Part shown: piece by piece, positions 18,546 through 37,470 of the stretch
Numbering within the stretch: position 1 is the first letter of the stretch
How the letters are laid out: the number at the start of each line of letters is the position of its first letter
Source of the DNA: Phylloscopus collybita
Taxonomy: Eukaryota; Chordata; Aves; Passeriformes; Phylloscopidae
Direction of reading: 5' to 3'
Length of the DNA stretch: 64,000 nucleotides
Assembly (NCBI GenBank): GCA_027886175.1
Contig: JAJNNQ010000006.1
Location: 61,230,001 to 61,294,000, forward strand
Notes under the pieces: model-generated
What the model was told of the DNA's origin: nothing
The model's database searches: none
What the model saw: the letters and a program-made list of their open reading frames with translations, nothing else
Program-made: the position numbers and the translations under genes

Positions 18546-18657
18546 CTCAGAGTTCATTCCCTGCAGCCGAGTTGGCTGCGCTCCTCAGCAGCGCTGCCGG
18601 CCCTCGGCAGCCTTGGGCAAGGCGGGAGGGCTTCCCCCGCTGCAGCCCCAGCTGAGG

Positions 18658-18681
18658 CAGCAGCAGCAGCAGCAGCAGCAG
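18658..18681 (+). repeat. (CAG)8 microsatellite, unit 1
   Basis: Eight CAG units inside the CpG-rich block opening the unit. Unit 2 has about eight (23497-23520) and unit 3 about ten (30485-30514). Glutamine, alanine or serine runs read from it are not supported as protein. Confidence 0.9.
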
Positions 18682-18794
18682 CTCTGTGCTGTTCCTGCCG
18701 GATCCCTGTGGCAGCAGCTGCACGGGGCTGTGCAGCCAAAGCCCCCAGAGCAGCGCACACGCAGCACCGGAGCAGCACGGCAGCCCTGGGGCTG

Positions 18795-18796
<2 letters not shown>

Positions 18797-18880
<84 letters not shown>
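18797..18880 (+). repeat. (CTG)28 microsatellite, unit 1
   Basis: An uninterrupted run of 28 CTG. The orthologous runs are 11 units in unit 2 (24354-24386) and 10 in unit 3 (30634-30663), so unit 1 has expanded. Long poly-Leu, poly-Cys, poly-Ala, poly-Gln and poly-Ser open frames through it exist in every frame and are artefacts. Confidence 0.95.
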
Positions 18881-18881
<1 letters not shown>

Positions 18882-19019
18882 GCAGCCCCGCAGGGCTCAG
18901 TGCTGAGCAGCCCTGGCTGGATGGAGCCGCTGTGGGCACCTCCAGCCCTGGGGCTGCTGCTCTGCTGCTCCAGGGCAGGGCCTTTCTGCGGGATTATGTT
19001 TCCTTTCTTCTGGGATAAC

Positions 19020-19330
19020 TTGCACAGAAGCCCTGAATCCCTGAGGCTGGAAAAGCCCTCCCAGCCCAGGGAGTCCCAGCTGTGCCCCATGCCCACCCTG
19101 TCACCCTGCCCAGATCATTGAGTGCCACATCCAGGTGTCCCATGGACACCTCCAGGGATGGGCACTCCAAACCTCCCTGGGCAGCTCTTCCCAAGGCCTG
19201 ACCAGCCTTTCCATGAGGAAATTGCTCCTGGTGTCCAACCCGAGCCTTCCCCTGGCACAGCTTGAGGCCGTTTCCCCTTGTCCTGTCTCTGTTCCCTGGG
19301 AGCAGAGCCCAACACACCCTCAGCAGAGGA
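19020..19330 (-). mobile_element. CR1 LINE 3' fragment, unit 1
   Basis: Antisense CR1 tail ('gaggctggaaaagccctccc', 'gggcagctcttcccaagg', 'gagcagagcccaacac'). It recurs at the same place in units 2 and 3, so it was inserted before the array formed. Confidence 0.88.
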
Positions 19331-19629
19331 AACAAATTCAAAATTGTAGAAGACAAAAATAAACCGTGATAGAACTCTGTAAACTTTTTTTGCATGGTTT
19401 TTCTTTTATTAAAACTTTTGTCAGCAGAGATGTTGCTAACTATCTGTTTAGAACTTTTGACCCACATGGACTTCTAATTATACCATTTTACTATTTATTA
19501 TGCCTTTCAAGACCAGTGTACAACAGAGTAGTGCAATCAAAAGTAGTTTTCTATGCCAAGGAGGGTAAAAAATATTGGGTTTTTTCTCCCATCTAGACTA
19601 AACCCTGTGGGTTTAGTGTCACATCTCAC
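19331..19629. other. AT-rich spacer between the CR1 tail and the CpG block, unit 1
   Basis: About 300 bp of AT-rich unit-specific DNA, recurring at about 25520-25818 and 33405-33740. No gene is recognised. It contains 'ggtttagtgtcacatctcac' just before the CpG-rich block. Confidence 0.5.
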
Positions 19630-20474
19630 ACAACGGGGCCCTGGGGCGCTGCTGCCGCAGCCGAGCCCAGCCCTTCGGGCCGCTGTCCCAATGCATTCGG
19701 AGGGGCACGGACACGATGTTCACGCCGTGTGTCTTTGTGCTCCGTGTTTGTGCTGCGTGTGCGGGCGGAGCGGGGCCGGCGGGAGCCGCGCTCCCCTCAG
19801 AGCCGCTGAGGGCGGCAGCAATGGCGGCGCCGCTCCCTCAGCGCCCGGGCCCGGCCCCGGCGGGCGGGGAGCCCTCGGCAGCGCCCTGGGGGCAGCAGGG
19901 AGCGAGCCCCGGGCCCGGCCTCTGTGCCCGTGGCGCCGCTGAGGCGAGGGCAGAGCTGCAAGGCTCGGTGCCTCGGGCACTGCCCCGAGCCAGGGGCAGC
20001 AGCCGGCCCCGGCCTTGTGGAAGCGCACGGGGCTCTCGTGGTGCCGCTTGTGCAGCTTGTGCGGGTGCCTGTGGATGGCCCCGGCCTGGCGTGGGGCCCT
20101 GCCCCGCTCAGCTGCCCGGCCCCGGCAAAGGCGCCGAGGCTGCGCTCGGTGCCCTGCGTGTCATTGCCCAAGGCAGTGAGCAGCCCCGGGGCCCGGGCAC
20201 AGCCCTGAGGGACAGCCCCGGTCCCCGGGCTCCCGCGGCTCGTGGAGCCGCTGCCCACAAGTCCCTGGCACGTCCGTGCGGCCAATTCCTGGTGCCCTGC
20301 CCGGCGCAGCCTGCAAAGCCAGGGCTCTGCCCTGTGGGGCTGGGGCTGCCGTGTGGGAGCGCGGCCAAAGCCCCTCAGGGCTCTGGGCACAGCAGGGGCC
20401 ACAAGGCCACAAGTCCGGGGGCTGCTCCGTGCCACTCCCTGCCTGCTCCACTGTAGCTGGGGGGCCAGGGCTGG
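19630..20474 (+). promoter_or_regulatory. CpG-rich block upstream of gene copy 1
   Basis: GC-rich, CpG-dense sequence of the CpG-island type. It contains a 212-codon open frame from an ATG at 19821 in good Kozak context ('gcagcaATGGCGG') to 20456. The same 212-codon length is kept in unit 3 (33941-34576), but an LTR breaks it in unit 2. The opposite strand is also open (251 codons), so openness here says little. It could be an upstream exon, an independent GC-rich transcript start, or simply island DNA. Confidence 0.5.
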
Positions 20475-20590
20475 CCCTTTGTGACACGGGCGCTTGGTGT
20501 CGGGGCCCTTTGTGATGTGGGACATGGTGGTGGCCAGAGACCCTTGTGACATCAGGGAGCCCCGCCCTGGCTCTGAGGGTATCTAAGGGG
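20475..20590 (+). promoter_or_regulatory. Predicted core promoter of gene copy 1
   Basis: Three related boxes, ccctttgtgaca (20475), ccctttgtgatg (20506) and cccttgtgacat (20541), are followed by a CRE-like TGACATCA (20547-20554), a GC box ccccgccc (about 20560) and a TATA-like TATCTAAGG (20580-20588). The order and spacing are those of a compact RNA polymerase II promoter, placing transcription start near 20610, about 250 bp before the ATG. The motifs are retained in the other two units. No factor binding is shown; this is motif evidence only. Confidence 0.6.
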
Positions 20591-20858
20591 CGCAGAGCCC
20601 TGGGGTGCCCATTGCCAGGAGAGCCGCTCTCTGAGGAGGAAGCAGCTCCCTGCATCTGTCTGCGCTAGAGGCCGATAGCGATAGACGCCGATAGCGACAG
20701 ACAGTGATAGCGACGAGGACAAAGCCAACTCCAACTCCCAGTCCTCCAGCCCCTTGCCCAGCACGCTGGAAGCCCCCAGCGGGCAGTGGTCAGGGGCAGT
20801 GGGCAGGTGAGTCCTGCCACTGAGAGAGACTGAGGAGGAGGAAAGGCCATTTGTCAAC

Positions 20859-22331
20859 ATGGACAGAGAGTTTTTTAAGTGGGAAAGTGATAGTGATGAG
20901 GAGCTTTCCCAGAGGGAAGACGCGACACGGAGAGTGACAAGCCAATGGCAAAGTGTACGGACAATCCAAGAAATTTCCCGTTTAGGACCCAAGGGGAGCC
21001 GAGAGCTGTACCAGCTCCAGGTACGTGTGCGTGTCCGAGAGGTTTCCCGGTACAGCAATGAAACACACGAAGAGATCCATGAACGGGAAGTAACCATCAC
21101 AGTCCGGGAGCTGTACCGGTGGGAAGAGGATGGTGAGCTGAACGAAGAGGTGCGCGAATGGGAGAAGTGTGCCACAGACCAGGAGGCGTCCCAGTGGAAA
21201 ACAGATGGGAAAGGGCAGCAGGAGTTCGACTGGGAAGAGGACGAGAGATCCCATGAGGTGTCCCTGCAGACAGATGGGAGTGCCTCAGAGGATTCCCAAT
21301 GGGACAACGTCCAAGATCTTTTCCAGAGGGAAGAGGAGAGGTCCCAAGACCTCTCACCATGCAAAGAAGATGTGCACTCCCACAACTCCGAATGGGAAGA
21401 CAGTGAGCCGGAGTCCTCTGAGTTCACAGACAGCAGTGACATGGAGCTGTCCCATTGGGAAGATGTGAGTGACCAAAAGCTGTCCCAAGGGGAAGAACAC
21501 GTGAGCAGCCAGGAGCTGTCCCAATGGGGCTGTGACATCAGCCCCAAGGTCTGGGACAGACCCTTGTGCCCAGTGAGCCACAAGGAGCCCAAGGCTTGTC
21601 CCGCAGGGGCTCCCAGCTCTGCCAGCCCCCTGGGCACAGAGGTGGCAGCAGAGGCAGTGCCTGCCCTAACCAGCACCTCTCCTTCCCTACAGAGTCCCAT
21701 GGAAGCTGAGCCAGCAGCTCCTCCCCCATCCAGAGCTGCTGAGGAGGAGGATCTGCCTGAGCGTCTTGCCCTGGAGGCAGAAAAGGCAGCAGAGTCTCCT
21801 GTCCCCAGTGAGGAGGTGCCATCAGCAGGGACACAGAGCCCAGTTCCTGCCCTGCCCAGCGCCTCTCCTGCCCCGGCTGGAGCTGCTGAGGAGGCAGCAG
21901 TGTGTGGAGGGGATGGCAGCCGATCCTCAGGACACTCCAGCTGGGAAAACGACAGCGACAAGGAGATCGTGCAGAGAAACTGGGATGATGAGACTGAGCA
22001 CGGCATCGGGACCAAACCCTTGCGCCCAGATGATGATGAGTGGGACGAGGTGAGTGTCCTGGAGCTGCCCCCAGAAGAGGATAAAGACCAGAAATGGAGA
22101 GTTTTTGCAGAGGACGGGCTCCCAGTGCCTGTTCCTCGCGAGGCCTGGGCTGAGCACCCGGCCCTGGAGCCGTGCAGCCCCCCCAGCCCCTGGCCTGCCC
22201 AGCTGGGAGCCCAGGCCCTGCGCGGGCAGCCGGCTGCCCCCAGGGAACGTCCCTCCCGCTTCAGGCGGGCGCTGCGGGCGCTGCGGGGGCTGTTCCGGTT
22301 CCGCTGCATGAGGCCACAGCCGGAGGAGTAA
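20859..22331 (+). CDS. Acidic Trp/Glu-repeat protein, array copy 1 (490 aa, unrecognised family)
   Basis: I recognise no known family. Residues 1-235 are acidic with Trp about every 10-25 residues (W8, W30, W88, W101, W113, W125, W148, W179, W200, W223, W232), in a loose repeat of the type S-Q-W-x-x-D...E-L-S. Residues 236-355 are Pro/Ala/Ser/Glu-rich and probably disordered. Residues 358-430 form a second acidic Trp block (W362, W375, W395, W413, W430). Residues 461-490 are Arg-rich with a basic amphipathic look (RFRRALRALRGLFRFR). No signal peptide or membrane span is seen. The ATG has a strong context (caacATGg). A donor CAG|GTGAGT at 20807 and an acceptor at 21691-21692 with CTAAC branch point could splice out residues 1-278, leaving a start at the ATG in codon 281. 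Compared with copies 2 and 3 it lacks an 11-codon segment after residue 195. The acidic and basic halves suggest a nuclear or nucleic-acid/chromatin-associated role, but that is a guess. Confidence 0.62.
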   Translation: MDREFFKWESDSDEELSQREDATRRVTSQWQSVRTIQEISRLGPKGSRELYQLQVRVRVREVSRYSNETHEEIHEREVTITVRELYRWEEDGELNEEVREWEKCATDQEASQWKTDGKGQQEFDWEEDERSHEVSLQTDGSASEDSQWDNVQDLFQREEERSQDLSPCKEDVHSHNSEWEDSEPESSEFTDSSDMELSHWEDVSDQKLSQGEEHVSSQELSQWGCDISPKVWDRPLCPVSHKEPKACPAGAPSSASPLGTEVAAEAVPALTSTSPSLQSPMEAEPAAPPPSRAAEEEDLPERLALEAEKAAESPVPSEEVPSAGTQSPVPALPSASPAPAGAAEEAAVCGGDGSRSSGHSSWENDSDKEIVQRNWDDETEHGIGTKPLRPDDDEWDEVSVLELPPEEDKDQKWRVFAEDGLPVPVPREAWAEHPALEPCSPPSPWPAQLGAQALRGQPAAPRERPSRFRRALRALRGLFRFRCMRPQPEE

Positions 22332-23100
22332 AAGAGACGAGGGAGAGGAGACGCCTGGGCAGTGAGGCTTGGAAAATGCCCCCCAAAGAGCTCAAAGCTG
22401 CCCTTCCCCAGCCCCGCACACACCCGGCCCTGGGCCTGGAAGGTGCAGCCACCATTTCTTGGGCATAAAGCAGAGGCTCCTGGAGCAGACTCTCGGCATC
22501 AACCCCTCCAAGACAACGGAAAAGAAGGTAAAGCAACGACAAGGACAATGGACAAGGACAAGGACAAGGACAGGACGAAGACTAGGATGAAGATGAAGAA
22601 GAAGATGAAGACGAAGATGAAGATGAAGACGATGGAGATGACGAAATTGATGAAGACGACGCAGAGAAAAAACTAAGAAGACAAAGAGAGTGAAGAAGAC
22701 GAAGATGAAGATGAAGATGAAGAAGACAATGAAGAACAAGAAGAAGATGATGACAAAGACAGAGACTAAGAAGACAAAGAAGATGGAAAAGACATTTTTA
22801 AGAATACATAGAGAAAGGATAGGAATAAGAATTAAAAATACTTAGAAGAAGTAGAGTAATAGGAATAGGAGTAGGAATTTATATAAGAAAAAGAGTAGTA
22901 AGAATAGGAATTAAAAATAGGTAGAAGAAGAAGAAGTGTAGTAGGAATAGGAATAAGAATTTAAAAATACGTAGAAGAAGTTAAGAAGATGAGTAGTATG
23001 AAAAAGAAGAGTAGGGAGAAGAAGAATAGGAATTTAAGAATATCTAAGTGAAGAGAAAAATTCTTGAATAAAACTAGTGTATATTTTCTAATAAATTTTG
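22332..23100 (+). other. 3' region and poly(A) signals of gene copy 1
   Basis: After the TAA come about 170 bp of ordinary sequence and a purine-rich GAN-type tract (about 22540-22770). An A/G-rich stretch with repeated 'aataggaataagaatt' follows, and then two AATAAA signals (23067-23072, 23090-23095) before CpG-rich DNA resumes. All three units keep this layout, supporting a real transcript end near 23110. Confidence 0.6.
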
Positions 23101-23119
23101 TAAGGCACAAGGAAAGGGT

Positions 23120-23587
23120 GTCCAGATTTCATTTCCTGTCCCGCAGAGGTGCTGCAGTATTTTCACCCTCGGTGCCAGGCAGTGAGTGCCCTGTGAGCAG
23201 TGAGTGCTCAGCCCCCGGCGGCAGCGGGAGAGTTCCCGGCCGGGCCGGCAGGGCAGGGCTGTCGCTGCTCTCTGGAGGCAAAGGAAAGGCGCCCGCTGAG
23301 GGCGGCTGAGAGAGAACTGTGCTGGGCAGCCTTTGCAGCAGGGCTGTGCAGCCGGGACAGCGAAGGCACCGCAGCCCCGCTCTGGCGCTGCCCATGGCCA
23401 GGGAGCCGGGCTGGCCGCGCTCCTCAGCAGCGCTGCCGGCCCTCGGCAGCCTTGGGCAAGGCGGGAGGGCTTCCCCCGCTGCAGCCCCAGCTCAGGCAGC
23501 AGCAGCAGCAGCAGCAGCAGCTCTGTGCTGTTCCTGCCAGATCCCTGTGGCAGCAGCTGCACGGGGCTGTGAAGCCACAGCCCCCAG
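23120..23587 (+). other. CpG-rich linker and start of unit 2
   Basis: GC-rich DNA spanning the unit 1/2 junction (23411/23412) and the (CAG)8 tract of unit 2. It is interrupted at 23588 by an LTR. No gene is recognised. Confidence 0.6.
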
Positions 23588-24299
23588 TGTGGCACTGCAA
23601 GAAATAATATGTGCAGGCCTTGGCTGTGAATACAGCATGAAGGGTTTTATTGTTAAGTTTAGTATAGCTTGCACAATGCAAGAATGCCCTTTTGTCTTAA
23701 GATGTATTGCTTGTTTTAATATGTAACTTTCTTGTAGTTTCGATAAGGGTTTCTAGGACAACTTTAGCCCCCTCTTAGAATCCTTTTTATTGGTTCCCCC
23801 TGCCTCACCACCTCTGTCATGCATAATTACCTTCGTGTCCATCATATAATTCTTATCTTTGAAGTACAGTAATGTTAGCCAGTGACCTCGCAAGACTGCC
23901 CTCAGCCCATCCCAGAACTTGTGCTGAATTTGTTGGAACCTAAATGACTTAATTTATCATGATGTATTTAGATTGTTTCATTGGTATCTGTAACTTAGAA
24001 CCCACCCCAGAATTGTAGTATTAAACCACCCACCACCCCAGGCTCGGGGTCTCTCTCCAGAGGCACCAGCCTGGGGTGGCTGGGGGGATCACTCTGACCC
24101 CCTTTCCCCCCACCCCCGAATAAAGCCTCTGTTTCCTGGAAAATTCAGAGAGAGTCCCCTTTTTCTTGGAACCAGCCTTTACAGTGTTACCCAGATGTGA
24201 GAGCCGAACCCCACAAAGTGACTTGTTGCGGCATGCTGGGAGCAGCCGGGGAGCCCTGGCTGGACACGGGCCTGGCCGGGCTGAGCACGCACGGCAACA
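23588..24299 (+). mobile_element. Solo LTR of an endogenous retrovirus, with 6-bp target duplication
   Basis: A 712-bp insertion absent from units 1 and 3, with TG...CA ends (tgtggcac...gcaaca). It is flanked by the 6-bp direct repeat ccccag (23582-23587 and 24300-24305). An AATAAA near 24118 fits the R region in plus orientation. A 6-bp duplication is typical of alpha/betaretrovirus-like ERVs. There is no internal region, so this is the product of LTR-LTR recombination. Confidence 0.9.
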
Positions 24300-24351
24300 C
24301 CCCAGAGCAGCGCACACGCAGCACCGGAGCAGCACGGCAGCCCTGGGGCTG

Positions 24352-24353
<2 letters not shown>

Positions 24354-24386
<33 letters not shown>
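24354..24386 (+). repeat. (CTG)11 microsatellite, unit 2
   Basis: Orthologous to the 28-unit run in unit 1. Confidence 0.93.
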
Positions 24387-24387
<1 letters not shown>

Positions 24388-24458
24388 GCAGCCCCGCAGG
24401 GCTCAGCGCTGAGCAGCCCTGGCTGGATGGAGCCCGCTCTGGGCACCTCCAGCCTCAG

Positions 24459-25149
24459 TGTTATAGATACAAAAACGAAGTTGAAACTTTTTAATAGTTG
24501 TGTTAGTATACTAGCTGTATGTTTCAATTTTTGTTTCTAACTGTGGGTTTTTTTCCAACTCGTTATGAGTTGTTACAAATGTCTGTTGTTGGAATGTTGT
24601 TCCAGTGGTTGTTAGATATTGTTGCAGTGTTTAGTTGTGAATGTTTGTAAGAGGTTTATGGGGCTACTTTGCTGAATCTAGTTAAAGGGCAACACCAAAG
24701 AAAAGGGGGATCTTCCACCCTTCCCCAAACAACTCAAGAAACTGAGACCATCCCCTGGTACTTTCATTGGAAGACACGACCCAATCAAAACACGGTGGGA
24801 AGAAATGATTGGTGTGGAAAGCACCCCGCTGAGAGCCAGGAAGAGCCCGAAGAATACACAATCATAGAAAGGACCCAAAACAGACCAATCCCTGAGGGGA
24901 CTGAGACTTTAAAAGGGGCTGAGCACTCTCAGTGAAGAAGCTTCTCTCTCTCAGGAACAGGACTGTCCTGAGGGGTGGCCCGTGCACACGTTTTTGGTTT
25001 CTCTGGCTTGCTGTGAGGGGCTAGGACTAGCCCAGCCTCCTGTTCCTCTAGCCGATTTTATAACAATAAATGATTGGCCTTCCCTTTTTAACATCTTTGG
25101 ATTTCCGGCCTCCTCAATAAACTTGCAAGATTGTCCCATTGGGGCTACA
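24459..25149 (+). mobile_element. LTR-like insertion, unit 2
   Basis: About 691 bp absent from units 1 and 3. It starts TGTTATAG, ends GGGGCTACA, and carries 'tttaaaagg' as a TATA-like element (about 24910) and several AATAAA (about 25065 and 25115). This fits a solo LTR in plus orientation. The flanks (cctcag / gttctg) do not show a target duplication, so flank loss or recombination between different LTRs is possible. Confidence 0.75.
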
Positions 25150-25209
25150 GTTCTGCTGCTCCAGGGCAGGGCCTTTCTGCGGGATTATGTTTCCTTTCTT
25201 CTGGGATAA

Positions 25210-25520
25210 CTTGCACAGAAGCCCTGAATCCCTGAGGCTGGAAAAGCCCTCCCAGCCCAGGGAGTCCCAGCTGTGCCCCGTGCCCACCCTGTCACCCTGC
25301 CCAGATCATTGAGTGCCACATCCAGGTGTCCCATGGGCACCTCCAGGGATGGGCACTCCAAACCTCCCTGGGCAGCTCTTCCCAAGGCCTGACCAGCCTT
25401 TCCATGAGGAAATTGCTCCTGGTGCCCAACCCGAGCCTTCCCCTGGCACAGCTTGAGGCCGTTTCCCCTTGTCCTGTCTCTGTTCCCTGGGAGCAGAGCC
25501 TGACACCCCCTCAGCAGAGG
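25210..25520 (-). mobile_element. CR1 LINE 3' fragment, unit 2
   Basis: Unit-2 counterpart of the CR1 tail at 19020-19330. Confidence 0.88.
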
Positions 25521-25819
25521 AAACAAATTCAAAGCTTGTAGAAGATAAGAATAAACGGTGATAGAACTCTGTAAACTTTTTTTTGCATGGTTTTTCTTTT
25601 ATTAAAACCTTTGTCAGCAGAGATGTTGCTAACTATCTGTTTACAAGTTTTGACCCACATGGACTTCTAATTATACCATTTTATTATTTATTATGCCTTT
25701 CAAGACCAGTGTACAACAGAGTAGTGCAATCAAAAGTGGGTTTCTATCCCAAGGAGGCTAAAAAATATTGGGTTTTTTTATCCCATCTAGACTAAACCGT
25801 GTGGGTTTAGTGTCACATC

Positions 25820-26276: not shown

Positions 26277-26971
26277 TGCTATAAATAAACCGAGCAGGAG
26301 ATGATTATTAACTCCTTAAATGCCTTTATTAAAAGGAGAAAGCTCAAGGGATTGCCAACACCTCTGCTGCTGCCCCCTCAATCAAGGCCGAGGAGGAGGC
26401 CCAAGTCGATTCTGCTGCTCACACTACAAAGCCCAGAGCACGTGCTCATGGAAGTTCCCAGGAACTCGCTGACCTGTCTTTAGTCCAGGGCTGTCTTTCT
26501 TTTCGAGTGCTTTGGAGGTTATGGTGACCAGGTGAAGAGGGTGTAGCGATGGCTGACAGCTTCATGTCTTCCCAGCCGGGTGGCATTCTTTATGGGTCTG
26601 AATTATGCGCTGACTCCTTGCTGGGGGTTTTCGGTGTTAATTACAGTAAACATGAAGCAAGGCTTCATGGGGGTCTCTGCGATTTCCATAATGGGCCTCA
26701 GTTTCATCTTGACAGGCAGCCAGTGGGTCGGCAGGAAGCAGGAAGAGAGACGGAGAGAGGGCAGGCAGGGAACAGCAAAACTTTGGCAACATGAAAGAGC
26801 TTACAAAACTGGGACTTCGGTTACAAACTGGCTACAAACTATTCAAGATAAAAATACGCATAACATCAATAGAACATCCATTGTAATATTAAGAGTCTTT
26901 AACACTTTTAAAGTAACCATCTACATAACATTGAACATACAACTAGGAGTTATGGAGTTCTACCCATATCA
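26277..26971 (-). mobile_element. Solo LTR in minus orientation, with 4-bp target duplication
   Basis: A 695-bp insertion with TG...CA ends on both readings (tgctataa...atatca), flanked by gccc (26273-26276 and 26972-26975). Units 1 and 3 read uninterrupted through this site. The reverse complement carries an AATAAA near 26330, placing the LTR on minus. A 4-bp duplication fits gammaretrovirus-like (ERV1) integration, so it belongs to a different ERV class from the LTR at 23588. Confidence 0.88.
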
Positions 26972-27369
26972 GCCCCGGCCTTGCGTGGGGCCCTGCCCCG
27001 CTCAGCTGCCCGTCCCCGGCAAAGGCGCCGAGGCTGCGCTCGGTGCCCTGCGTGTCATTGCCCAAGGCAGTGAGCAGCCCCGGGGCCCGGGCACAGCCCT
27101 GAGGGACAGCCCCGGTCCCCGGGCTCCCGCGGCTCGTGGAGCCGCTGCCCACAAGTCCCTGGCACGTCCGTGCGGCCAATTCCTGGTGCCCTGCCCGGCG
27201 CAGCCTGCAAAGCCAAGGCTCTGCCCTGTGGGGCTGGGGCTGCCGTGTGGGAGCGCGGCCAAAGCCCCTCAGGGCTCTGGGCACAGCAGGGGCCACAAGG
27301 CCACAAGTCCGGGGGCTGCTCCGTGCCACTCCCTGCCTGCTCCACTGTAGCTGGGGGGCCGGGGCTGGT
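26972..27369 (+). promoter_or_regulatory. CpG-rich block of unit 2, right part
   Basis: Counterpart of about 20090-20474, separated from the left part by the minus-strand LTR. The LTR now lies about 400 bp upstream of the predicted core promoter and could alter it. Confidence 0.5.
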
Positions 27370-27484
27370 CCTTTGTGACACGGGCGCTTGGTGTCGGGGC
27401 CCTTTGTGATGTGGGACATGGTGGTGGCCAGAGACCCTTGTGACATCAGGGAGCCCCGCCCTGGCTCTGAGGGTATCTAAGGGG
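27370..27484 (+). promoter_or_regulatory. Predicted core promoter of gene copy 2
   Basis: Same boxes as copy 1: three tTGTGA-type motifs, TGACATCA (27441-27448), a GC box and TATCTAAGG (27474-27482). Expected start of transcription is near 27505. Confidence 0.58.
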
Positions 27485-27752
27485 CGAAGAGCCCTGGGGT
27501 GCCCATTCCCAGGAGAGCCGCTCTCTGAGGAGGAAGCAGCTCCCTGGATCTGTCTGCGCTAGAGGCCAATAACGATAGACGCCGATAGCGACAGACAGCG
27601 ATAGTGACGAGGACAAAGCCAACTCCAACTCCCAGTCCTCCAGCCCCTTGCCCAGCTGGCTGGAAGCCCCCAGCGGGCAGTGGTCAGGCGCAGTGGGCAG
27701 GTGAGTCCTGCCACTGACAGAGACTGAGGAGGAGGAGAGGCCATTTGTCAAC

Positions 27753-29258
27753 ATGGAGAGAGAGCATTCCCACTGGGAAAGTGAGAGTGAGGAGGAGCTT
27801 TCCCAGAGGGAAAACACGACACGGCGAGTGAAAAACCAATGGCAAAGTGTAAGGACAATCGAAGAAACTTCCCGTTTGGGACCCAGGGGGAGCCGAGAGC
27901 TGTACCAGCTCCAGGTACGTGTGTGTGTCCGAGAGGTTTCCCGGTACAGTGATGAAACACGGGAAGAGATCTACGATCGGGAAGTAACCATCACAGTCCG
28001 GGAGCTGTACCGGTGGGAAGAGGACGGTGAGCTGCATGAAGAGGTGCGGGAATGGGAAAAATGTGCCACAGACCAGGAGGCGTCCTCGTGGAAAACAGAT
28101 GAGAGAGGGCAGCAGGAATTCTACTGGGAAGAGGACAAGAGATCCCATGAGGTGTCCCTGCAGACAGATGGGAGTGCCTCAGAGGATTCCCAATGGGACG
28201 ACGTCCAGGAGGTTTTCCAGAGGGATGATGAGAGGTCCCAAGACCTCTCACCATGGGAAGAAGATGTGCACTCCCACAACTCCGAATGGGAAGACAGTGA
28301 GCCGGACTCCTCCCAGGTCACAGACAGCAGTGACACGGAGCTGTCCCAAGGATCAGCAGCTGGAGCCCAGGAGCTGCCCCAATGGGAAGATGTGAGTGAC
28401 CAAAAGCTGTCCCAAGGGGAAGAACACGTGAGCAGCCAGGAGCTGTCCCAATGGGGCTGTGACATCAGCCCCAAGGTCTGGGACAGACCCTGGTGCCCAG
28501 TGAGCCACAAGGAGCCCAAGGCTTGTCCCGCAGGGGCTCCCAGCTCTGCCAGCCCCCTGGGCACAGAGGTGGCAGCAGAGGCAGTGCCTGCCCTAACCAG
28601 CACCTCTCCTTCCCTACAGAGTCCCATGGAAGCTGAGCCAGCAGCTCCTCCCCCATCCAGAGCTGCTGAGGAGGACGATCTGCCTGAGTGTCTTGCCCTG
28701 GAGGCAGAAAAGGCAGCAGAGTCTCCTGTCCCCAGTGAGGAGGTGCCATCAGCAGGGACACAGAGCCCAGTGCCTGCCCTGCCCAGCGCCTCTCCTGCCC
28801 CGGCTGGAGCTGCTGAGGAGGCTGCAGTGTGTGGAGGGGATGGCAGCAGATCCTCAGGACACTCCAATTGGGAAAATGACAGCGACAAGGAGATCGTGCA
28901 GAGGAATTGGCAAGATGCGACCGAGCACGGGTTCGGGACCAAGCCCATGCGTCCAGAGGATGATGAATGGGACGAGGTGAGTGTCCTGGAGCTGCCGGCA
29001 GAGGAGGATAAGGACCAAAAATGGAGAGTTTTTGCAGAGGACGGGCTCCCAGTGCCTGTTCCTCGTGAGGCCTGGGCTGAGCACCCGGCCCTGGAGCCGC
29101 GCAGCCCCCCCAGCCCCTGGCCTGCCCAGCTGGGAGCCCAGGCCCTGCGCAGGCAGCCGGCTGCCCCCAGGGAACGTCCCTCCCGCTTCAGGCGGGCGCT
29201 GCGGGCGCTGCGGGGGCTGTTCCGGTTCCGCTGCATGAGGCCACAGCCGGAGGAGTAA
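27753..29258 (+). CDS. Acidic Trp/Glu-repeat protein, array copy 2 (501 aa)
   Basis: Same architecture as copy 1 with the 11-codon segment (SQGSAAGAQEL-type, 33 bp) between the W179-type and W200-type motifs. The N-terminal half differs from copy 1 at many residues: a hand count over codons 1-131 gives about 25 replacement and 8 silent codon differences. In the second Trp block (codons about 369-440) the count is about 8 replacement to 11 silent. The region around the splice acceptor is almost identical to copy 1. Donor CAG|GTGAGT (about 27701), branch point and acceptor are retained. It is the longest copy and has no frameshift. Confidence 0.62.
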   Translation: MEREHSHWESESEEELSQRENTTRRVKNQWQSVRTIEETSRLGPRGSRELYQLQVRVCVREVSRYSDETREEIYDREVTITVRELYRWEEDGELHEEVREWEKCATDQEASSWKTDERGQQEFYWEEDKRSHEVSLQTDGSASEDSQWDDVQEVFQRDDERSQDLSPWEEDVHSHNSEWEDSEPDSSQVTDSSDTELSQGSAAGAQELPQWEDVSDQKLSQGEEHVSSQELSQWGCDISPKVWDRPWCPVSHKEPKACPAGAPSSASPLGTEVAAEAVPALTSTSPSLQSPMEAEPAAPPPSRAAEEDDLPECLALEAEKAAESPVPSEEVPSAGTQSPVPALPSASPAPAGAAEEAAVCGGDGSRSSGHSNWENDSDKEIVQRNWQDATEHGFGTKPMRPEDDEWDEVSVLELPAEEDKDQKWRVFAEDGLPVPVPREAWAEHPALEPRSPPSPWPAQLGAQALRRQPAAPRERPSRFRRALRALRGLFRFRCMRPQPEE

Positions 29259-30090
29259 AAGAGACGAGGGAGAGAAGACGCCTGGGCAGTGAGGCTGGGA
29301 AAATGCCCCCCAAAGAGCCCAAAGCTGCCCCTTCCCCAGCCCCGCACACACCCGGCCCCGGGCCTGGAAGGTGCAGCCACCATTTCTTGGGCATAAAGCA
29401 GAGGCTCCTGGAGCAGACTCTCGGCATCAACCCCTGCAACACAACGAAAAAGAAGACAAAGCACGGACAGGGACAACGGACAAGCACAAGGACCACAGAC
29501 AAGGACAAGGGCAAGGGCAAGGACAAGGACAAAGACAAGGACAAAGACTAGGATGAAGATGAAGAAGATGACGAAGAACAAGACGAAGACGAAAATGAAG
29601 ATGAAGACGAAAATGAAGATAAAGATGAAGACGACGATGACGAAGACGACGAAGACGATGAAGACAAAAAACGAAGAAGACAAAGAGAGTGAAGAAGACA
29701 AAGACGAAGATGAAGTAGACAATGAAGAACAGGAAGAAGACGAAGACAAAGACTAAGACTAAGAAGACATAGAAGATGGAAAAGACTTTTTTAAGAATAC
29801 ATTAAAAAGGATAGCAATAAGAATTAAAAATACTTAGAAGTAGTAGAATAATAGGAATAGGAGTAAGAATTTACATAAGAAAAAGAGTAGTAAGATTAGG
29901 AATTAAAAATAGGTAGAAGAAGAAGTGTAGTAGGAATAAGAATAAGAATTTAAAAATACATAGAAGAAGTAAAGAAGACGAGTAGTATGAAAAAGAAGAG
30001 TAGGGAGAAGAAGAATAGGAATTTAAGAATACCTAAGTGAAGAGAAAAATTCTTGAATAAAACTAGTGTATATTTTCTAATAAATTTTGT
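29259..30090 (+). other. 3' region and poly(A) signals of gene copy 2
   Basis: The GAN-type purine tract is at about 29550-29755; two AATAAA signals lie at 30056-30061 and about 30079-30084. Same layout as copy 1. Confidence 0.6.
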
Positions 30091-30483
30091 AAGGCACAAG
30101 GAAAGGGTGTCCAGATTTCATTTCCTGTCCCGCAGAGGTGCTGCAGTATTTTCACCCTCAGTGCCAGGCAGTGAGTGCCCTGTGAGCAGTGAGTGCTCAG
30201 CCCCCGGCGGCAGCGGGAGAGTTCCCGGCCGGGCCGGCAGGGCAGGGCTGTCGCTGCTCTCTGGAGGCAAAGGAAAGGCGCCCGCTGAGGGCGGCTGAGA
30301 GAGAACTGTGCTGGGCAGCCTTTGCAGCAGGGCTGTGCAGCCGGGACAGCGAAGGCACCGCAGCCCCGCTCTGGCGCTGCCCATGGCCAGGGAGCCGGGC
30401 TGGCCGCGCTCCTCAGCAGCGCTGCCGGCCCTCGGCAGCCTTGGGCAAGGCGGGAGGGCTTCCCCCGCTGCAGCCCCAGCTGA

Positions 30484-30519
<36 letters not shown>

Positions 30520-30631
30520 TCTGTGCTGTTCCTGCCGGATCCCTGTGGCAGCAGCTGCACGGGGCTGTGCAGCCAAAGCCCCCAGAGCAGCGCACACGCA
30601 GCACCGGAGCAGCACGGCAGCCCTGGGGCTG

Positions 30632-30633
<2 letters not shown>

Positions 30634-30663
<30 letters not shown>
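30634..30663 (+). repeat. (CTG)10 microsatellite, unit 3
   Basis: Orthologous to the 28-unit run in unit 1. The upstream CAG run here is about 10 units. Confidence 0.93.
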
Positions 30664-30664
<1 letters not shown>

Positions 30665-30794
30665 GCAGCCCCGCAGGGCTCAGCGCTGAGCAGCCCTGGC
30701 TGGATGGAGCCCGCTGTGGGCACCTGCAGCCTCAGGGCTGCTCCTCTGCTGCTCCAGGGCAGGGCCTTTCTGCGGGATTATGTTTCCTTTCTTC

Positions 30795-31059
30795 TGGGAT
30801 AACTTGCACAGAAGCCCTGAATCCCTGAGGCTGGAAAAGCCCTCCCAGCCCAGGGAGTCCCAGCTGTGCCCCATGTCCACCTTGTCACCCTGCCCAGATC
30901 ATTGAGTGCCACATCCAGGTGTCCCATGGACACCTCCAGGGATGGGCACTCCAAACTTCCCTGGGCAGCTCTTCCCAAGGCCTGACCAGCCTTTCCATGA
31001 GGAAATTGCTCCTCGTGTCCAACCCGAGCTTTCCCCTGGCACAGCTTGAGGCCCTTTCC
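30795..31059 (-). mobile_element. CR1 LINE 3' fragment, unit 3, split by a provirus
   Basis: Unit-3 counterpart of 19020-19330. The CR1 sequence resumes at about 33352 ('ccccttgtcctgtctatg') after the proviral insertion. Confidence 0.88.
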
Positions 31060-31639
31060 TGTTGCAGTTTGCATGCGGCAGTCGACACCGACACTGCACT
31101 TGCACTCGAGGTGCTTTATTAGAATCATCAGAAGGCTTCAAGTATCAGCATCTTGATATTCCAAAAGTCTCACACACCTTTGCTCTGTATTTCCTAAGAG
31201 CTCCAGCTCCACACAGCTCTGGCTCTCTCCCTAGTTCTTCACAGGGCAGACTCCAACTGACTCTAACGAACTCCAACTGACTCTGTCTCCCTACCACTTT
31301 ACTCACTCCTTATCAGGCCCATAGCTGTGATGGCAAGGCTGTTGCTACTCTAGGATAATTAGCACAGCTGTAATATATCAGAGGGAAGACTGCCTTCAAG
31401 AGCATCTCTTTTTGTCTCCTCACAATTCCCCATTCGTTTTTTAATTAAACATTTCAAGAAACACATGCTTAGGTATATTGACCTTATAACATTCAAATAC
31501 TGTAGATAAATTGACATTGTAACACTCAAATACTACATACAAATACTGTCTCTAGTTTCTTCTGTAAGTGGATGCATTAGGCACAGATAACAATCTGATA
31601 AATACCAGTTTCTTTTTCTCTAATTGTGTTTTTTCTATA

Positions 31640-31800
31640 TATTTCTATTTTTATTTTTTCAAATTTTTCACTTTTTTTTTTCTCTTTTCTTTTTTTTTTT
31701 CATTTTTTTCTATGCTTTTTAAGATTTCCTTTTCTCTCTTTTTTTAACTTTTTTTCTATTTTTTAGTTTATTTTTTCTGGGGCTTTTGTCCATTTCTTTC
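31640..31800. repeat. T-rich tract inside the provirus
   Basis: Nearly all T with scattered C and A (A-rich on the element's own strand), between the 3' LTR and the tandem repeats. Confidence 0.85.
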
Positions 31801-31974
31801 CTCTCTCTGCTTCTCCATTGTAGCTATAACATAGATGAGCTCTGTTTGATCTTTTGAGGAAACAGTCTGATTCTACAATAGCCCCTCAAACTACATTGAT
31901 TGATCCATTTACAATCCTGGCCATTTTCTTCCATGCTGGCATAAAAACCTGACACGAATGTCACTGTTGAGGCA

Positions 31975-32105
31975 GCCACAACACAACCTCCTTAGAGAAA
32001 CTATGTAGTCACAACACAACCTCCCTAGAGAAGTTATGTGCCATTAACACAACCTCCCTAGAGAAGTTATGTGCCATTAACACAACCTCCCTAGAGAAGT
32101 TATGT
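31975..32105 (-). repeat. ~33-bp tandem repeat (about four copies) inside the provirus
   Basis: Unit like 'acacaacctccctagagaag' plus 'ttatgtgccatta', in the internal region downstream of the primer site. Reading it as protein gives an 11-residue repeat, which I take as incidental. Confidence 0.85.
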
Positions 32106-32341
32106 CCCATTGTCGCTAGCTGGTGGCTCACCTCTTTCCAGGTGTCTTTGCAAGAGAAAATCAGGTCCGGACCACCTGTGGCTTCCACTGCCACTCTCAG
32201 CTTCACCAACGCTGCCTCCCCCACTCCATTCCCAAGCGGGTCTACATTGCCAGTCATGGGACCCCACACGGGTCCAGGCCAAGTCTGTAGTTCGGGTTGT
32301 TGTATCACAGGGCTCGTCAGGTCGGTCATCAGTTGTCGCTC

Positions 32342-32359
32342 ATCACATCGGGGTCACCA
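32342..32359 (-). promoter_or_regulatory. Retroviral primer-binding site (tRNA-Trp type)
   Basis: On minus, TGGTGACCCCGATGTGAT starts 2 bp after the 5' LTR end. The tRNA-Trp primer-binding site of the avian alpharetrovirus group differs at one position (ACG in place of ATG). This fixes the orientation of the provirus. Confidence 0.85.
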
Positions 32360-32385
32360 GATGTCGCAGTCGACATGCGGCAGTC

Positions 32386-32932
32386 TGTGGGGGTGGGCAA
32401 TGCCCCGGTGGCCCTGCCCTGGAGGGAGGCCTGGGAAGAATTGCACAATCTCCCTGCAGAACCCCAAGATAAGGAAACAAGCTTTCAGTCACGGCGACCA
32501 CCAAAGAACCCACAATCCTCCAAGAGATTTTATGTAGATCTGTTGTAAACGATTGGCTTTGGACCCTTTCCCCTCCCACCCTAGTTTCCCATAAAAACCC
32601 CCTGAGTCCCACTAGTCCCCAGGGTATCCATCCCTGGCCCCCTTCGCTGGTACTTTGCAATAAAGTTCCTTCATGCGGAATCACCAAACGGGAGCCTCTC
32701 TCTCTTTCCCGGGCCGGCTACGAGAGAAGCAGATCTCACAGGGCAAGAGCTGAGAAATCACTGAGCTGAAATTACACGAGCTGAAAAAATTGCTGCTCTG
32801 CCCCCTGCTGAAATGCTCTCTACCAGCTGAGGAAGCGCTGACCCCCCAAGAAGTTGCCTCTAAAGAGATATCTTTTTGGGGTGGCTCTGAGATTCTGGGT
32901 CCGGACCACGGACCCCAGAACCAGCTACAATA
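32386..32932 (+). mobile_element. Nested LTR-like insertion inside the 5' LTR
   Basis: It splits the minus-strand 5' LTR between gcagtc (32380-32385) and gcagtt (32933-32938), a 6-bp duplication with one change. It has 'ccataaaaacccc' as a TATA-like box (about 32588) and an AATAAA near 32658, so it is in plus orientation, opposite to its host. The start is TGTGG; the end (ctacaata) is not a clean CA, so the right edge may be a few bases off. Confidence 0.72.
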
Positions 32933-33739
32933 GCAGTTGACATGGACAGTGCAATTGCACTCGAGGTGCTTCATTAGAATCATCAGAAGGCTTCAAGTAT
33001 CAGCATCTTGATATTCAACAAGTCTCCCATACCTTTGCTCTGTACTTCCTAAGAGCTCCAGCTCCACGCAGCTCTGGATCTCTTCTTCAGCTCTGGTTCT
33101 GTTTCTCTTCTTCAAATCTGGCTCACTTCTTCAGCTCCGGCTCTCTCCCTAGGTCTTCACAGCATGGCGGGCAGACTCCAACTGACTCTAACGAACTCCA
33201 ACGGACTCTAACGGACTCCCTAGCAGTTAACTCCCTCTTTATCAGGCCCATAGCTGTGAGGGCAAGGCTGTTTCTACTCTAGGATAATCAGCACAGCTGT
33301 GACATATCAGAGAGGAGACTGCCTTCAAGAGCATCTCTTTTTGTCTCCCCAGATTCCCCTTGTCCTGTCTATGTTCCCTAGGAGCAGAGCCCAACATCCC
33401 CTCAGCAGAGAAAGCAAATTCAAAAGTTGTAGAAGACAAGAGCAACCCGTGATCAAACTGTGTAAACTTCTTCTGCATAGTTATTCTTTTATTAAATCTT
33501 TTGTCAGCAGAGATGTTGCTAACTATCTGTTTACAACTTACTGTGGTAAACAACTATCTGTTTACCACATGGACTACTAATTATACCATTTTAGTACTTA
33601 TTATGCCTTTCAAGACCAGTGTACAACAGAGTAGTGCAATCAAAAGTGGGTTTCTATCCCAAGGAGGCTAAAAACTATTCGGTTTAAAAAATACGGGTTT
33701 TTTAATCCAAACTAGACTACACCCAGTGGGTTTAGTGTC

Positions 33740-34594
33740 ACATCTCACACAACGGGGCCCTGGGGCGCTGCTGCCGCAGCCGAGCCCAGCCCTTCGGGCC
33801 GCTCTCCCAATGCATTCGGAGGGGCACGGACACGATGTTCAGCGCCGTGTGTCTTTGTGCTCCGTGTTTGTGCTGCGTGTGCGGGCGGAGCGGGGCCGGC
33901 GGGAGCCGCGCTCCCCTCAGAGCCGCTGAGGGCGGCAGCAATGGCGGCGCCGCTCCCTCAGCGCCCGGGCCCGGCCCCGGCGGGCGGGGAGCCCTCGGCA
34001 GCGCCCTGGGGGCAGCAGGGAGCGAGCCCCGGGCCCGGCCTCTGTGCCCGTGGCGCCGCTGAGGCGAGGGCAGAGCTGCAAGGGTCGGTGCCTCGGGCAC
34101 TGCCCCGAGCCAGGGGCAGCAGCCGGCCCCGGCCTTGTGGAAGCGCACGGGGCTCTCGTGGTGCCGCTTGTGCAGCTTGTGCGGGTGCCTGTGGATGGCC
34201 CCGGCCTGGCGTGGGGCCCTGCCCCGCTCAGCTGCCCGTCCCCGGCAAAGGCGCCGAGGCTGCGCTCGGTGCCCTGCGTGTCATTGCCCAAGGCAGTGAG
34301 CAGCCCCGGGGCCCGGGCACAGCCCTGAGGGACAGCCCCGGTGCCCGGGCTCCCGCGGCTCGTGGAGCCGCTGCCCACAAGTCCCTGGCACGTCCGTGCG
34401 GCCAATTCCTGGTGCCCTGCCCGGCGCAGCCTGCAAAGCCAGGGCTCTGCCCTGTGGGGCTGGGGCTGCCGTGTGGGAGCGCGGCCAAAGCCCCTCAGGG
34501 CTCTGGGCACAGCAGGGGCCACAAGGCCACAAGTCCGGGGGCTGCTCCGTGCCAGTCCCTGCCTGCTCCACTGTAGCTGGGGGGCCGGGGCTGG
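33740..34594 (+). promoter_or_regulatory. CpG-rich block upstream of gene copy 3
   Basis: Uninterrupted counterpart of 19630-20474, with the 212-codon frame from ATG 33941 to 34576 intact. Confidence 0.5.
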
Positions 34595-34710
34595 CCCTTT
34601 GTGACACGGGCGCTTGGTGTCGGGGCCCTTTGTGATGTGGGACATGGTGGTGGCCAGAGACCCTTGTGACATCAGGGAGCCCCGCCCTGGCTCTGAGGGT
34701 ATCTAAGGGG
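34595..34710 (+). promoter_or_regulatory. Predicted core promoter of gene copy 3
   Basis: Boxes as in copy 1: TGACATCA (34667-34674), GC box, TATCTAAGG (34700-34708). Confidence 0.58.
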
Positions 34711-34977
34711 CGCAGAGCCCTGGGGTGCCCATTCCCAGGAGAGCCACTCTCTGAGGAGGAAGCAGCTCCCTGCATCTGTCTGCGCTAGAGGCCGATAGCG
34801 ATAGACGCCGATAGCGACAGACAGCGATAGTGACGAGGACAAAGCCAACTCCAACTCCCAGTCCTCCAGCCCCTTGCCCAGCTGGCTGGAAGCCCCCAGC
34901 GGGCAGTGGTCAGGGGCAGTGGGCAGGTGAGTCCTGCCAGTGACAGAGACTGAGGAGGAGGAGAGGCCTTTGTCAAC

Positions 34978-36399
34978 ATGGAGAGAGAGTATTCCCACTG
35001 GGAAATTGATAGTGATGAGGAGCTTTCCCAGAGGGAAGACATGACACGGCGAGTGACAAGCCAATGGGAAAGTGTAAGGACAATCGAAGAATCTTCCCGT
35101 TTGGGACCCAGGGGGAGCCGAGAGCTGTACCTGCTCCAGGTACGAGTGCGTGTCCGAGAGGTTTCCCGGTACAGCGATGAAACACAGGAAGAGATCCATG
35201 AACGGGAAGTAACCATCACAGTCCGGGAGCTGTACCGGTGGGAAGAGGATGGTGAGCTGCAAGAAGAGGTGCGGGAATGGGAAAAATGTGCCACAGACCA
35301 GGGGGCGTCCCAGTGGAAAACAGATGAGAGAGGGCAGCAGGAATTCTACTGGGAAGAGGACAAGAGATCCCATGAGGTGTCCCTGCAGACCGATGGGAGT
35401 GTCTCAGAGGATTCCCAATGGGACGACGTCCAGGAGGTTTTCCAGAGGGATGATGAGAGGTCCCAAGACGTCTCACCAAGCGAAGAAGATGTGCACTCCC
35501 ACAGCTCCCAATGGGAAGACAGTGAGCCGGAGTCCTCTGAGTTCACAGACAGCAGTGACACAGAGCTGTCCGAAGGATCAGCAGCTGGAGCCGAGGAGCT
35601 GCCCCATTGGGAAGATGTGAGTGACCAAAAGCTGTCCCAAGGGGAAGAACACGTGAGCAGCCAGGAGCTGTCCCAATGGGGCCGTGACATCAGCCCCAAG
35701 GTCTGGGACAGACCCTTGTGCCCAGTGAGCCACAAGCAGCCCAAGGCTTGTCCCTCAGGGGCTCCCAGCTCTGCCAGCCCCCTGGGCACAGAGGTGGCAG
35801 CAGAGGCAGTGCCTGCCCTAACCAGCACCTCTCCTTCCCTACAGAGTCCCATGGAAGCTGAGCCAGCAGCTCCTCCCCCATCCAGAGCTGCTGAGGAGGA
35901 GGATCTGCCTGAGCGTCTTGCCCTGGAGGCAGAAAAGGCAGCAGAGTCTCCTGTCCCCAGCGAGGAGGTGCCATCAGCAGGGACACAGAGCCCAGTGCCT
36001 GCCCTGCCCAGCGCCTCTCCTGCCCCGGCTGGAGCTGCTGAGGAGGCAGCAGTGTGTGGAGGGGATGGCAGCCAATCCTCAGGACACTCCAGCTGGGAAA
36101 AGGACAGCGACAAGGAGATCGTGCTGGGGAACTGGGATGACAAGACCGAGCACGGCATCGGGACCAAGCCCTTGCACCCAGACGATGATGAGTGGGACGA
36201 GGTGAGTGTCCTGGAGCTGCCCCCAGAAGAGGACAAACAGAAAAAATGGAGAGTTTTTGCAGAGGACGGGCTCCCAGTGCCTGTTCCTCGCGAGGCCTGG
36301 GCTGCCCCCAGGGAACGTCCCTCCCGCTTCAGGCAGGCGCTGCGGGCGCTGCGGGGGCTGTTCCGGTTCCGCTGCATGAGGCCACAGCCGGAGGAGTAA
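34978..36399 (+). CDS. Acidic Trp/Glu-repeat protein, array copy 3 (473 aa)
   Basis: Same protein as copy 2 but with an in-frame 84-bp (28-codon) deletion between the second Trp block and the Arg-rich tail (EAW joins directly to APRERP). A 1-bp deletion lies only about 8 bp upstream of the ATG ('ggcctttgtcaacATG' against 'ggccatttgtcaacATG'), while no frameshift occurs inside the open frame. That supports this ATG as the start, or at least constraint beginning near it. The splice donor (about 34927), branch point and acceptor are retained. The loss lies next to the Arg-rich tail but leaves it whole, so the tail seems important. Confidence 0.62.
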   Translation: MEREYSHWEIDSDEELSQREDMTRRVTSQWESVRTIEESSRLGPRGSRELYLLQVRVRVREVSRYSDETQEEIHEREVTITVRELYRWEEDGELQEEVREWEKCATDQGASQWKTDERGQQEFYWEEDKRSHEVSLQTDGSVSEDSQWDDVQEVFQRDDERSQDVSPSEEDVHSHSSQWEDSEPESSEFTDSSDTELSEGSAAGAEELPHWEDVSDQKLSQGEEHVSSQELSQWGRDISPKVWDRPLCPVSHKQPKACPSGAPSSASPLGTEVAAEAVPALTSTSPSLQSPMEAEPAAPPPSRAAEEEDLPERLALEAEKAAESPVPSEEVPSAGTQSPVPALPSASPAPAGAAEEAAVCGGDGSQSSGHSSWEKDSDKEIVLGNWDDKTEHGIGTKPLHPDDDEWDEVSVLELPPEEDKQKKWRVFAEDGLPVPVPREAWAAPRERPSRFRQALRALRGLFRFRCMRPQPEE

Positions 36400-37155
36400 A
36401 AGAGACGAGGGAGAGGAGACGCCTGGGCAGTGAGGCTTGGAAAATGCCCCCAAAGAGCCCAAAGCTGCCCCTTCCCCAGCCCCGCACACACCCGGCCCCG
36501 GGCCTGGAAGGTGCAGCCACCATTTCTTGGGCATAAAGCAGAGGCTCCTGGAGCAGACTCTCGGCATCAACCCCTGCAACACAACGGAAAAGAAGGTAAA
36601 GCAAGAACAAGGATGAGGACAAGGACGAAGATGATGACGATGACAATGATGATGACGAAGATGAAGACGAAGACGAAGATGAAGACGAAGACGACGAGGA
36701 CGATGAGGACAACAACGATGACAAAGATGAAGATGAAGACGAAGAAAACTAAGACGATGAAGACAGTGAAGAAGACCAAGACAAAGATGAAGAAGACAAT
36801 GAAGAACAAGAAGAAGACGAAGACAAAGACAGAGACTAAGAAGAAGAAGATGGAGAAGACTTATTTAAGAACACATAGAAAATGAATAGGAATAAGAATT
36901 AAAAATACTTAGAAGTAGTAGAGTAATAGGAGTAGGAATAAGAATTTATATAAGAAGAAGAGTAGTATGAATAAGAATTAAGAATATGTAGAAGTAGTGT
37001 AGTAGGAATAGGGATAAGAATTTAAAAATACATAGAAGAAGCAAAGAAGATGAGTAGTATTAAAAAGAAGAGTAGTGAGAAGAAGAATAAGTATTTAAGA
37101 ATCCATAAGTGAAAAGTTTATGAATAAAACTAGTGTATATTTTCTAATAAAGTTT
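36400..37155 (+). other. 3' region and poly(A) signals of gene copy 3
   Basis: The GAN-type tract (about 36610-36840) is the longest of the three. AATAAA lies at 37123-37128 and 37146-37151. Confidence 0.6.
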
Positions 37156-37470
37156 CTAAGTCACAAGGCAAGAGTGCCCAGATTTCATTTCCTGTCCCGC
37201 AGAGGTGCTGCAGTATTTTCACCCTCGGTGCCAGGCAGTGAGTGCCCTGTGAGCAGTGAGTGCTCAGCCCCCGGCGGCAGCGGGAGAGTTCCCGGCCGGG
37301 CCGGCAGGGCAGGGCTGTCGCTGCTCTCTGGAGGCAAAGGAAAGGCGCCCGCTGAGGGCGGCTGAGAGAGAACTGTGCTGGGCAGCCTTTGCAGCAGGGC
37401 TGTGCAGCCGGGACAGCGAAGGCACCGCAGCCCCGCTCTGGCGCTGCCCATGGCCAGGGAGCCGGGCTGG

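Follow-up and report, generated by a model that had tools for sequence, protein, structure and literature searches.

An apparently undescribed tandem gene family of Trp/Glu-repeat proteins in perching birds

Introduction

The human VCX/VCY genes form an ampliconic, lineage-specific family with many near-identical copies and short acidic repeats. Here, we analyzed a stretch of 64,000 nucleotides from the perching bird Phylloscopus collybita (contig C6, positions 61230001-61294000; hereafter, the window), in which tandem open frames encode acidic proteins with tryptophan (Trp, W) and glutamate (Glu, E) repeats. The two families resemble each other in the large number of near-identical copies within a lineage and in their short acidic repeats; moreover, one relative, P0048 from Sylvia, carries the name variable charge X-linked protein 3B in its record. 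Unlike VCX/VCY, the passerine family has an 11/22-residue repeat around Trp, a conserved basic tail, and matches on 15 contigs.

Genes unique to songbirds were the subject of a 2014 study by Wirthlin et al. The part of that paper on which we draw (PMC4377847) describes songbird-confined genes, some of them multi-copy, and in this the present family is similar; the novel genes named there (e.g., TMRA, YTHDC2L1, HYDINL, and RIOK2L) are other genes, and the passerine family is also found in suboscines. Trp with acidic flanks is shared with the W-acidic kinesin adaptors SKIP and calsyntenin, as presented in the relevant part of PMC5450233, and clusters of acidic with aromatic or Leu residues are shared with the activation domains of CITED2 and VP16, as presented in the corresponding part of PMC10550315. 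The family was not found in the literature searched, nor in Pfam or NCBIfam, and is apparently undescribed, although multi-copy, lineage-confined families as such are already known.

Results

The window frames are part of a larger array

Three open frames were read in the window, with the following coordinates:

20859..22331, + strand: copy 1 open frame, 490 codons, from TTTGTCAACATGG
27753..29258, + strand: copy 2 open frame, 501 codons, from TTTGTCAACATGG
34978..36399, + strand: copy 3 open frame, 473 codons, from TTTGTCAACATGG

These lengths and Met contexts agree with the sequence-only reading, an earlier examination of this DNA that had reported frames of 473-501 codons differing by 33 and 84 bp alone. 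The alignment of the frames bore out this last point too, as it contained one gap of 33 bp and one of 84 bp, both in frame, and no frameshift. The 33-bp gap is in copy 1 and has the length of one 11-residue repeat unit, while the 84 bp preceding the tail are absent from copy 3 and likewise from 18 of the 20 near-full copies described below. The three proteins are strongly acidic, with a net charge of -56 to -59, 3.4-3.8% Trp, and about 15% Glu. No Pfam family was found above the cut-off for any of them, the lone match having an E-value of 5.2, far below it, and NCBIfam gave no match for the three proteins, in keeping with the earlier description of an unrecognised Trp/Glu-repeat protein. Collectively, the sequence data support that this tandem family is real.

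The genome (1.247 Gb in 517 contigs, with C6 being 62.5 Mb long) was searched with copy 2 as the query, and the best 86 of 2055 candidates were scored, so the counts are lower bounds. At least 111 matched stretches were found, and these merged into at least 82 places on 15 contigs when rows less than 2.5 kb apart were joined, a count in which a broken gene may still appear twice. Stops were present in 12 of the 111 rows. Twenty near-full copies lie within 0.93 Mb near the contig end (C6 61.25-62.18 Mb), and the window, which had been described as a three-copy family, holds only three of them. The protein identity between near-full copies is 83-90%, and the frame is open in 19 of the 20, the exception being L012, with an internal TGA; L009 and L023 show a slight alteration of the start context. 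The C6 copies are therefore ampliconic in the sense of many highly similar tandem copies whose frames are kept open.

Related genes of other shapes were also observed. L027 (C6:59.12 Mb) has a related frame with linker-type repeats, stop-free over 2349 codons in the stretch examined and 2812 codons long as a whole, and L036 (C103) and L037 (C6:61.986 Mb) are related genes whose repeats, of the type ELSPVEEDIEVISGDSRSDQ, mostly lack Trp. Contig C115 (2.23 Mb) carries 25 more family places on both strands, with irregular spacing and a few different frame lengths.

Relatives are found in perching birds and keep long frames

Three protein searches returned 54, 61, and 21 proteins, amounting to at least 87 distinct relatives. 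Because the searches rely on shared five-residue words, and two of them scored only the candidates with most words in common, more distant members could have escaped detection. A species name was attached to 80 of the 87 relatives (seven had none), and these came from 26 species, all perching birds, oscine and suboscine; this placement was looked up for four species and is presumed for the rest. The suboscine genera were Pithys, Willisornis, Empidonax, Myiozetetes, Manacus, Pipra, Corapipo, Neopelma, Lepidothrix, and Pseudopipra. The database labels of the relatives disagree with one another (trichohyalin-like, SETD1B-like, FSCB-like, MAP7D1-like, and VCX3B, among others), and the family is apparently unnamed because gene predictors gave its members such unrelated labels.

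Long open frames are kept by the relatives across the 26 species; frameshifted or stop-containing orthologues would have spoken against the sequence-only reading. In a tree of the C-terminal part (midpoint-rooted, supports not printed), several groups cross oscine species, each keeping long frames, and the array copies of the P. collybita genome, like those of Hirundo, cluster within species. This pattern is the one that old subfamilies together with concerted evolution within species would give. The family looks, from these sequences, specific to one bird order and long kept in frame.

Stops are depleted among the copies

Of random substitutions in the window frames, 4.3-4.6% create a stop. 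The three frames differ by at least 118 substitutions, for which about 5 stops would be expected, and none was seen. Among the 19 open C6 copies, 252 distinct single-base changes included one that makes a stop on its own, against 11.4 expected, and because its codon carries a second change, this stop is present in no copy. L012 was left out of these change counts and of the column counts given below; when its TGA is included, there are 2 stops against about 11.4 expected (p = 7e-4, L012's other changes not added). In a second set of copies, on C115, C65, and C109, one open 307-codon frame is common to 18 of 19 copies, and the 92 distinct changes included no stop, where 4.2 were expected (p = 0.014; L054, whose expected end was not found, was left out). 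In addition, the two gaps among the 20 near-full copies that fall in the frame are both multiples of three, whereas none of the three gaps in 700 bp upstream and the two in about 200 bp downstream is. The pairwise ratios of non-synonymous to synonymous divergence (dN/dS) of the window copies were 0.46 (0.30-0.76), 0.67 (0.40-1.23), and 0.77 (0.47-1.31). Stops are depleted among the copies, and amino-acid constraint is weak.

The proteins are built on an 11/22-residue repeat and end in a constant tail

From N- to C-terminus, the aligned proteins consist of a W/E block, a Pro/Ala/Glu linker, another W/E block whose length varies, a conserved module that ends in GLPVPVPREAW, and the tail. In copy 2, these parts are located as follows:

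27825..28148, + strand: W/E/V repeat block (residues 25-132), a predicted five-strand sheet with high divergence between copies
28503..28826, + strand: Pro/Ala/Glu/Ser linker (residues 251-358), near-identical between copies
28827..29087, + strand: second W module (residues 359-445), SNWENDSDKE...PEDDEWDEVSVLEL...GLPVPVPREAW, second divergence peak
29160..29255, + strand: basic Arg/Leu/Cys tail (residues 470-501), with the sole columns at least 90% identical in alignment A2, from which 37 of 90 proteins were left out (fragments, near-duplicates, and giant models among them)

The tail, of the type RKRPSRFRRALRALRGLFRCPCLxPQPEE, is conserved across subfamilies. It was basic in all nine members tested, with helical amphipathicity at p < 0.05 in five. 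The Trp context was profiled over 1097 sites in 75 less redundant proteins, obtained from the 90 by dropping near-duplicates, and reads E-L-S-Q/D-W-E-E. Trp residues were most often spaced 22, 11, and 13 residues apart, and LS-type motifs most often recurred at steps of 11, 22, 44, and 33; in sequence, the W/E blocks are built on an 11/22-residue repeat, with up to 38 Trp in one family protein. No signal or transmembrane stretch was evident upon inspection by eye.

AlphaFold2 modeling of copy 2 (53 sequences) placed five long strands at residues 25-132, where ten-residue blocks had predicted local distance difference test (pLDDT) scores of 55-93. Most of the remaining residues scored below 50, and a helix was placed at 478-489, so beyond residue 132 the protein is predicted to be mostly disordered, plus a short tail helix. 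The model of the suboscine relative P0061 (40 sequences) had strands at 78-165, less confidently predicted (pLDDT of 44-81), and helices in its middle part.

Divergence among the copies is a mosaic

In the window copies, the frames diverge by 5.0-5.7% and the 5' flanks by 1.5-2.2% (p = 7e-5 to 6e-6), with the frame divergence concentrated in the two W blocks. Over the 20 near-full copies, nucleotide diversity was 0.7-1.6% in the upstream region as far as about -190 and rose to 4-13% between that point and about +700. It fell to 0.1-1% across the following 300 columns, which correspond to the linker, reached 6% for the second module, and was 0.7-2% near the tail. Recombination among the copies was indicated, as 1 of 500 permutations was as low as observed. 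Since synonymous sites are raised as well, the best reading of the mosaic is conversion that either keeps the upstream region, linker, and tail alike while sparing the blocks, or brings in block variants.

Upstream regions have spread with the genes

The regions 5' of the frames contained the following features:

27333..27592, + strand: upstream region of copy 2, with CCTTTGTGAC-like boxes, a GC-rich box, and TATCTAA, aligning with paralogues on C6 and six other contigs
about 20439-20698 and about 34559-34818: matching upstream regions of copies 1 and 3
20685..20810, + strand: remnant of an older N-terminal extension in copy 1, without ATG, with a TGA at 20808-20810
27579..27704, + strand: the same remnant in copy 2, without ATG, with a TGA at 27702-27704
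34805..34930, + strand: the same remnant in copy 3, without ATG, with a TGA at 34928-34930, followed by a 1-bp deletion before the ATG

Paralogues whose upstream regions aligned with that of copy 2 lie on C6 (L027, L028, and L039) and on C131, C34, C115, C132, C109, and C65 (L029, L030, L031, L034, L041, and L042), for a total of 11 rows, with L034 giving two. All 11 rows have CCTTTGTGAC in common, plus much of GGAAGCAGCTCCC, and TATCTAA is near-intact in only some of them. As upstream regions can be aligned across contigs, whole genes have spread together with them. The first 87 bp of L037 are 97% identical to the copy 2 upstream region. In the window copies, TATCTAA lies 278-279 bp 5' of each ATG, within this putative promoter.

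An ATG is found at the matching upstream place in the relatives P0040 and P0047 and in the paralogue L031, and several relatives and paralogues start with MEEDK...SPLPGWL... or similar; on this comparison, the older start was probably further upstream than the inner ATG. The upstream TGA is absent from some array copies, and just 5' of the inner ATG 2 bp are missing in 16 of 20 copies and 1 bp in copy 3 and L012. With either the TGA or these small deletions, translation would start at the inner ATG. The 1-bp indel noted previously near the copy 3 ATG is indeed a real deletion, but it lies at position -10 instead of -8.

Discussion

Our preferred interpretation, which we put forward tentatively and at somewhat under even chances, is that the window frames are members of a large passerine family of acidic intracellular adaptors with a variable head and a constant tail. 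We infer an intracellular adaptor because the head changes fast, the tail and upstream region are constant, and no signal or transmembrane stretch is evident by eye. The head, a predicted beta-sheet made of Trp/Glu repeats, would interact with partners, the constant basic Arg/Leu/Cys tail would anchor the protein, and head and tail would have separate partners. Units may multiply by unequal crossing-over and trade tracts by gene conversion, and the latter could keep promoter and tail alike while head variants persist. The genes would be expressed, with the germ line as the first candidate by analogy with other ampliconic families. Several results weigh against this interpretation. The models are weak overall, with a mean pLDDT of 52.6 for copy 2 and 45.7 for P0061, built on 53 and 40 sequences, and fold searches gave no significant match. 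Constraint on amino acids is weak: for the C6 array the dN/dS-like ratio is 0.78 (p = 0.07), and for the second set it is 0.93 (p = 0.73). Of six blocks, the second W module alone has a ratio significantly lower than the neutral one (0.48, p = 0.012), and within the array Trp columns are no more conserved than the rest, with variation in 6 of 20 compared with 124 of all 501 columns. Moreover, as dS is raised along with dN in the W blocks, the divergence there does not demonstrate diversifying selection.

A first alternative is a by-product of segmental duplication, in which the frames are open since the copies are young or converted and the proteins are inert now. Non-synonymous changes are near neutral proportions in both sets, near-full copies share as much as 83-90% of their protein sequence, and damaged copies exist, with stops in 12 of 111 rows. 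Yet stops are depleted in two separate sets, subfamilies cross oscine species, each with long frames (in the midpoint-rooted tree without printed supports), and the frame stays intact while its flanks gain gaps other than multiples of three; we regard this explanation as unlikely. Equally improbable, in our estimate, is that the W/E repeats are acidic activation domains that recruit coactivators to chromatin, like CITED2 and VP16, without a DNA-binding domain of their own. According to the part of PMC10550315 used here, the rule for such domains asks for a 39-residue stretch with a charge of -9 or lower, W+F+Y+L of at least 7, and a diagonal term, and 75 of the 90 family proteins contained a qualifying stretch, whereas shuffling of whole proteins would give 37. 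The 90 proteins are related, so this excess does not represent 90 independent observations, and the rule concerns composition only. The full rule was satisfied by none of the three window proteins, the relaxed rule by each, with 1-4 stretches, and, unlike CITED2 and VP16, the passerine proteins have a basic tail and an N-terminal block predicted as a folded sheet, not as disorder.

A kinesin-1 cargo adaptor, with W-acidic motifs that bind the light-chain TPR domain, is quite doubtful. An acidic residue follows Trp at 55% of the 1097 sites, but such motifs often have L/M at W-2 (PMC5450233, in the part concerned), and L/M at W-2 with an acidic W+1 occurs at only 15 of them; the preferred Leu is at W-3, and the number of Trp per protein, up to 38, also sets the family apart from SKIP and calsyntenin as described there. 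As for a transposon or virus frame, the copies are dispersed and numerous, each with a single uninterrupted frame, and identity to a known transposon frame would have undone the earlier reading; it was looked for, and no transposon or viral frame was found. No window protein has a Pfam domain above the cut-off, a scan of 53 members gave three isolated weak matches and none to mobile elements, no relative was confirmed in viral contigs by a search reaching close relatives, and the copies share kilobases of flank together with the upstream region, as in segmental duplication, which makes this origin very improbable. We give as little credence to a long-stranded membrane pore like gasdermin or MACPF proteins; amphipathicity of the predicted strands reached p < 0.05 in one of five.

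Perching birds make up more than half of all bird species. A bolder version of the adaptor interpretation, which we consider a long shot, is that they hold an unrecognised repertoire of variable-head, constant-tail intracellular proteins. Dozens of tandem genes would have a single promoter type and a single anchoring tail in common, conversion would shuffle the diversified Trp/Glu sheet heads, and each species would have binding specificities of its own, for example for use against intracellular parasites or in a germ-line conflict. Should the head and tail function as proposed for the adaptor, this would be a new adaptor system in birds. The apparent restriction to one order and the long-kept frame make the family a good case for studying the origin of a new protein family, and the arrays also suit the study of the balance between homogenisation and diversification. 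At minimum, the scattered annotations belong in one family, and the misleading names should go.

Other features of the window and the genome

Downstream of each frame there are two AATAAA signals, as previously described, and a purine-rich tract:

23067 and 23090 (23067..23095), + strand: paired AATAAA, copy 1
30056 and 30079, + strand: paired AATAAA, copy 2
37123 and 37146, + strand: paired AATAAA, copy 3
22534..22785, + strand: purine-rich (GACGAA)n tract in the 3' region of copy 1
about 29455-29776 and 36624-36860, + strand: purine-rich (GACGAA)n tracts of the other units

Units are spaced 5.4-5.5 kb apart in the distal + array, 4.8-5.6 kb in the - array, and 6.9 and 7.2 kb inside the window, where the extra length is at least partly due to insertions resembling long terminal repeats (LTR), seen as homology breaks. 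Such breaks between units, LTR-like by eye, lie at 23588-24299, 24459-25139, and 26277-26971, the last about 0.8 kb 5' of the copy 2 ATG. Between units 2 and 3, at 31078-33359, an LTR-like pair (31078-31431 and 32933-33359, 87-91% alike) surrounds about 1.5 kb. GCT runs at 18791-18880, 24348-24386, and 30628-30663 (94-97% matches) differ in length and apparently occupy the same place in successive units.

Long minisatellites flank the array at 1524-3182 (15 bp, 108 copies) and 38213-39526 (70 bp, 19 copies), and six tandem 180-bp copies with 92% matches, overlapping a 235-codon open frame, are found at 42968-44017. Elsewhere in the genome, CHD1-type C-terminal matches were detected at C59:2.48 Mb and C88:2.66 Mb, besides one on C10; three such matches are, we assume, what is expected if both Z and W copies are present, i.e., in a female genome.

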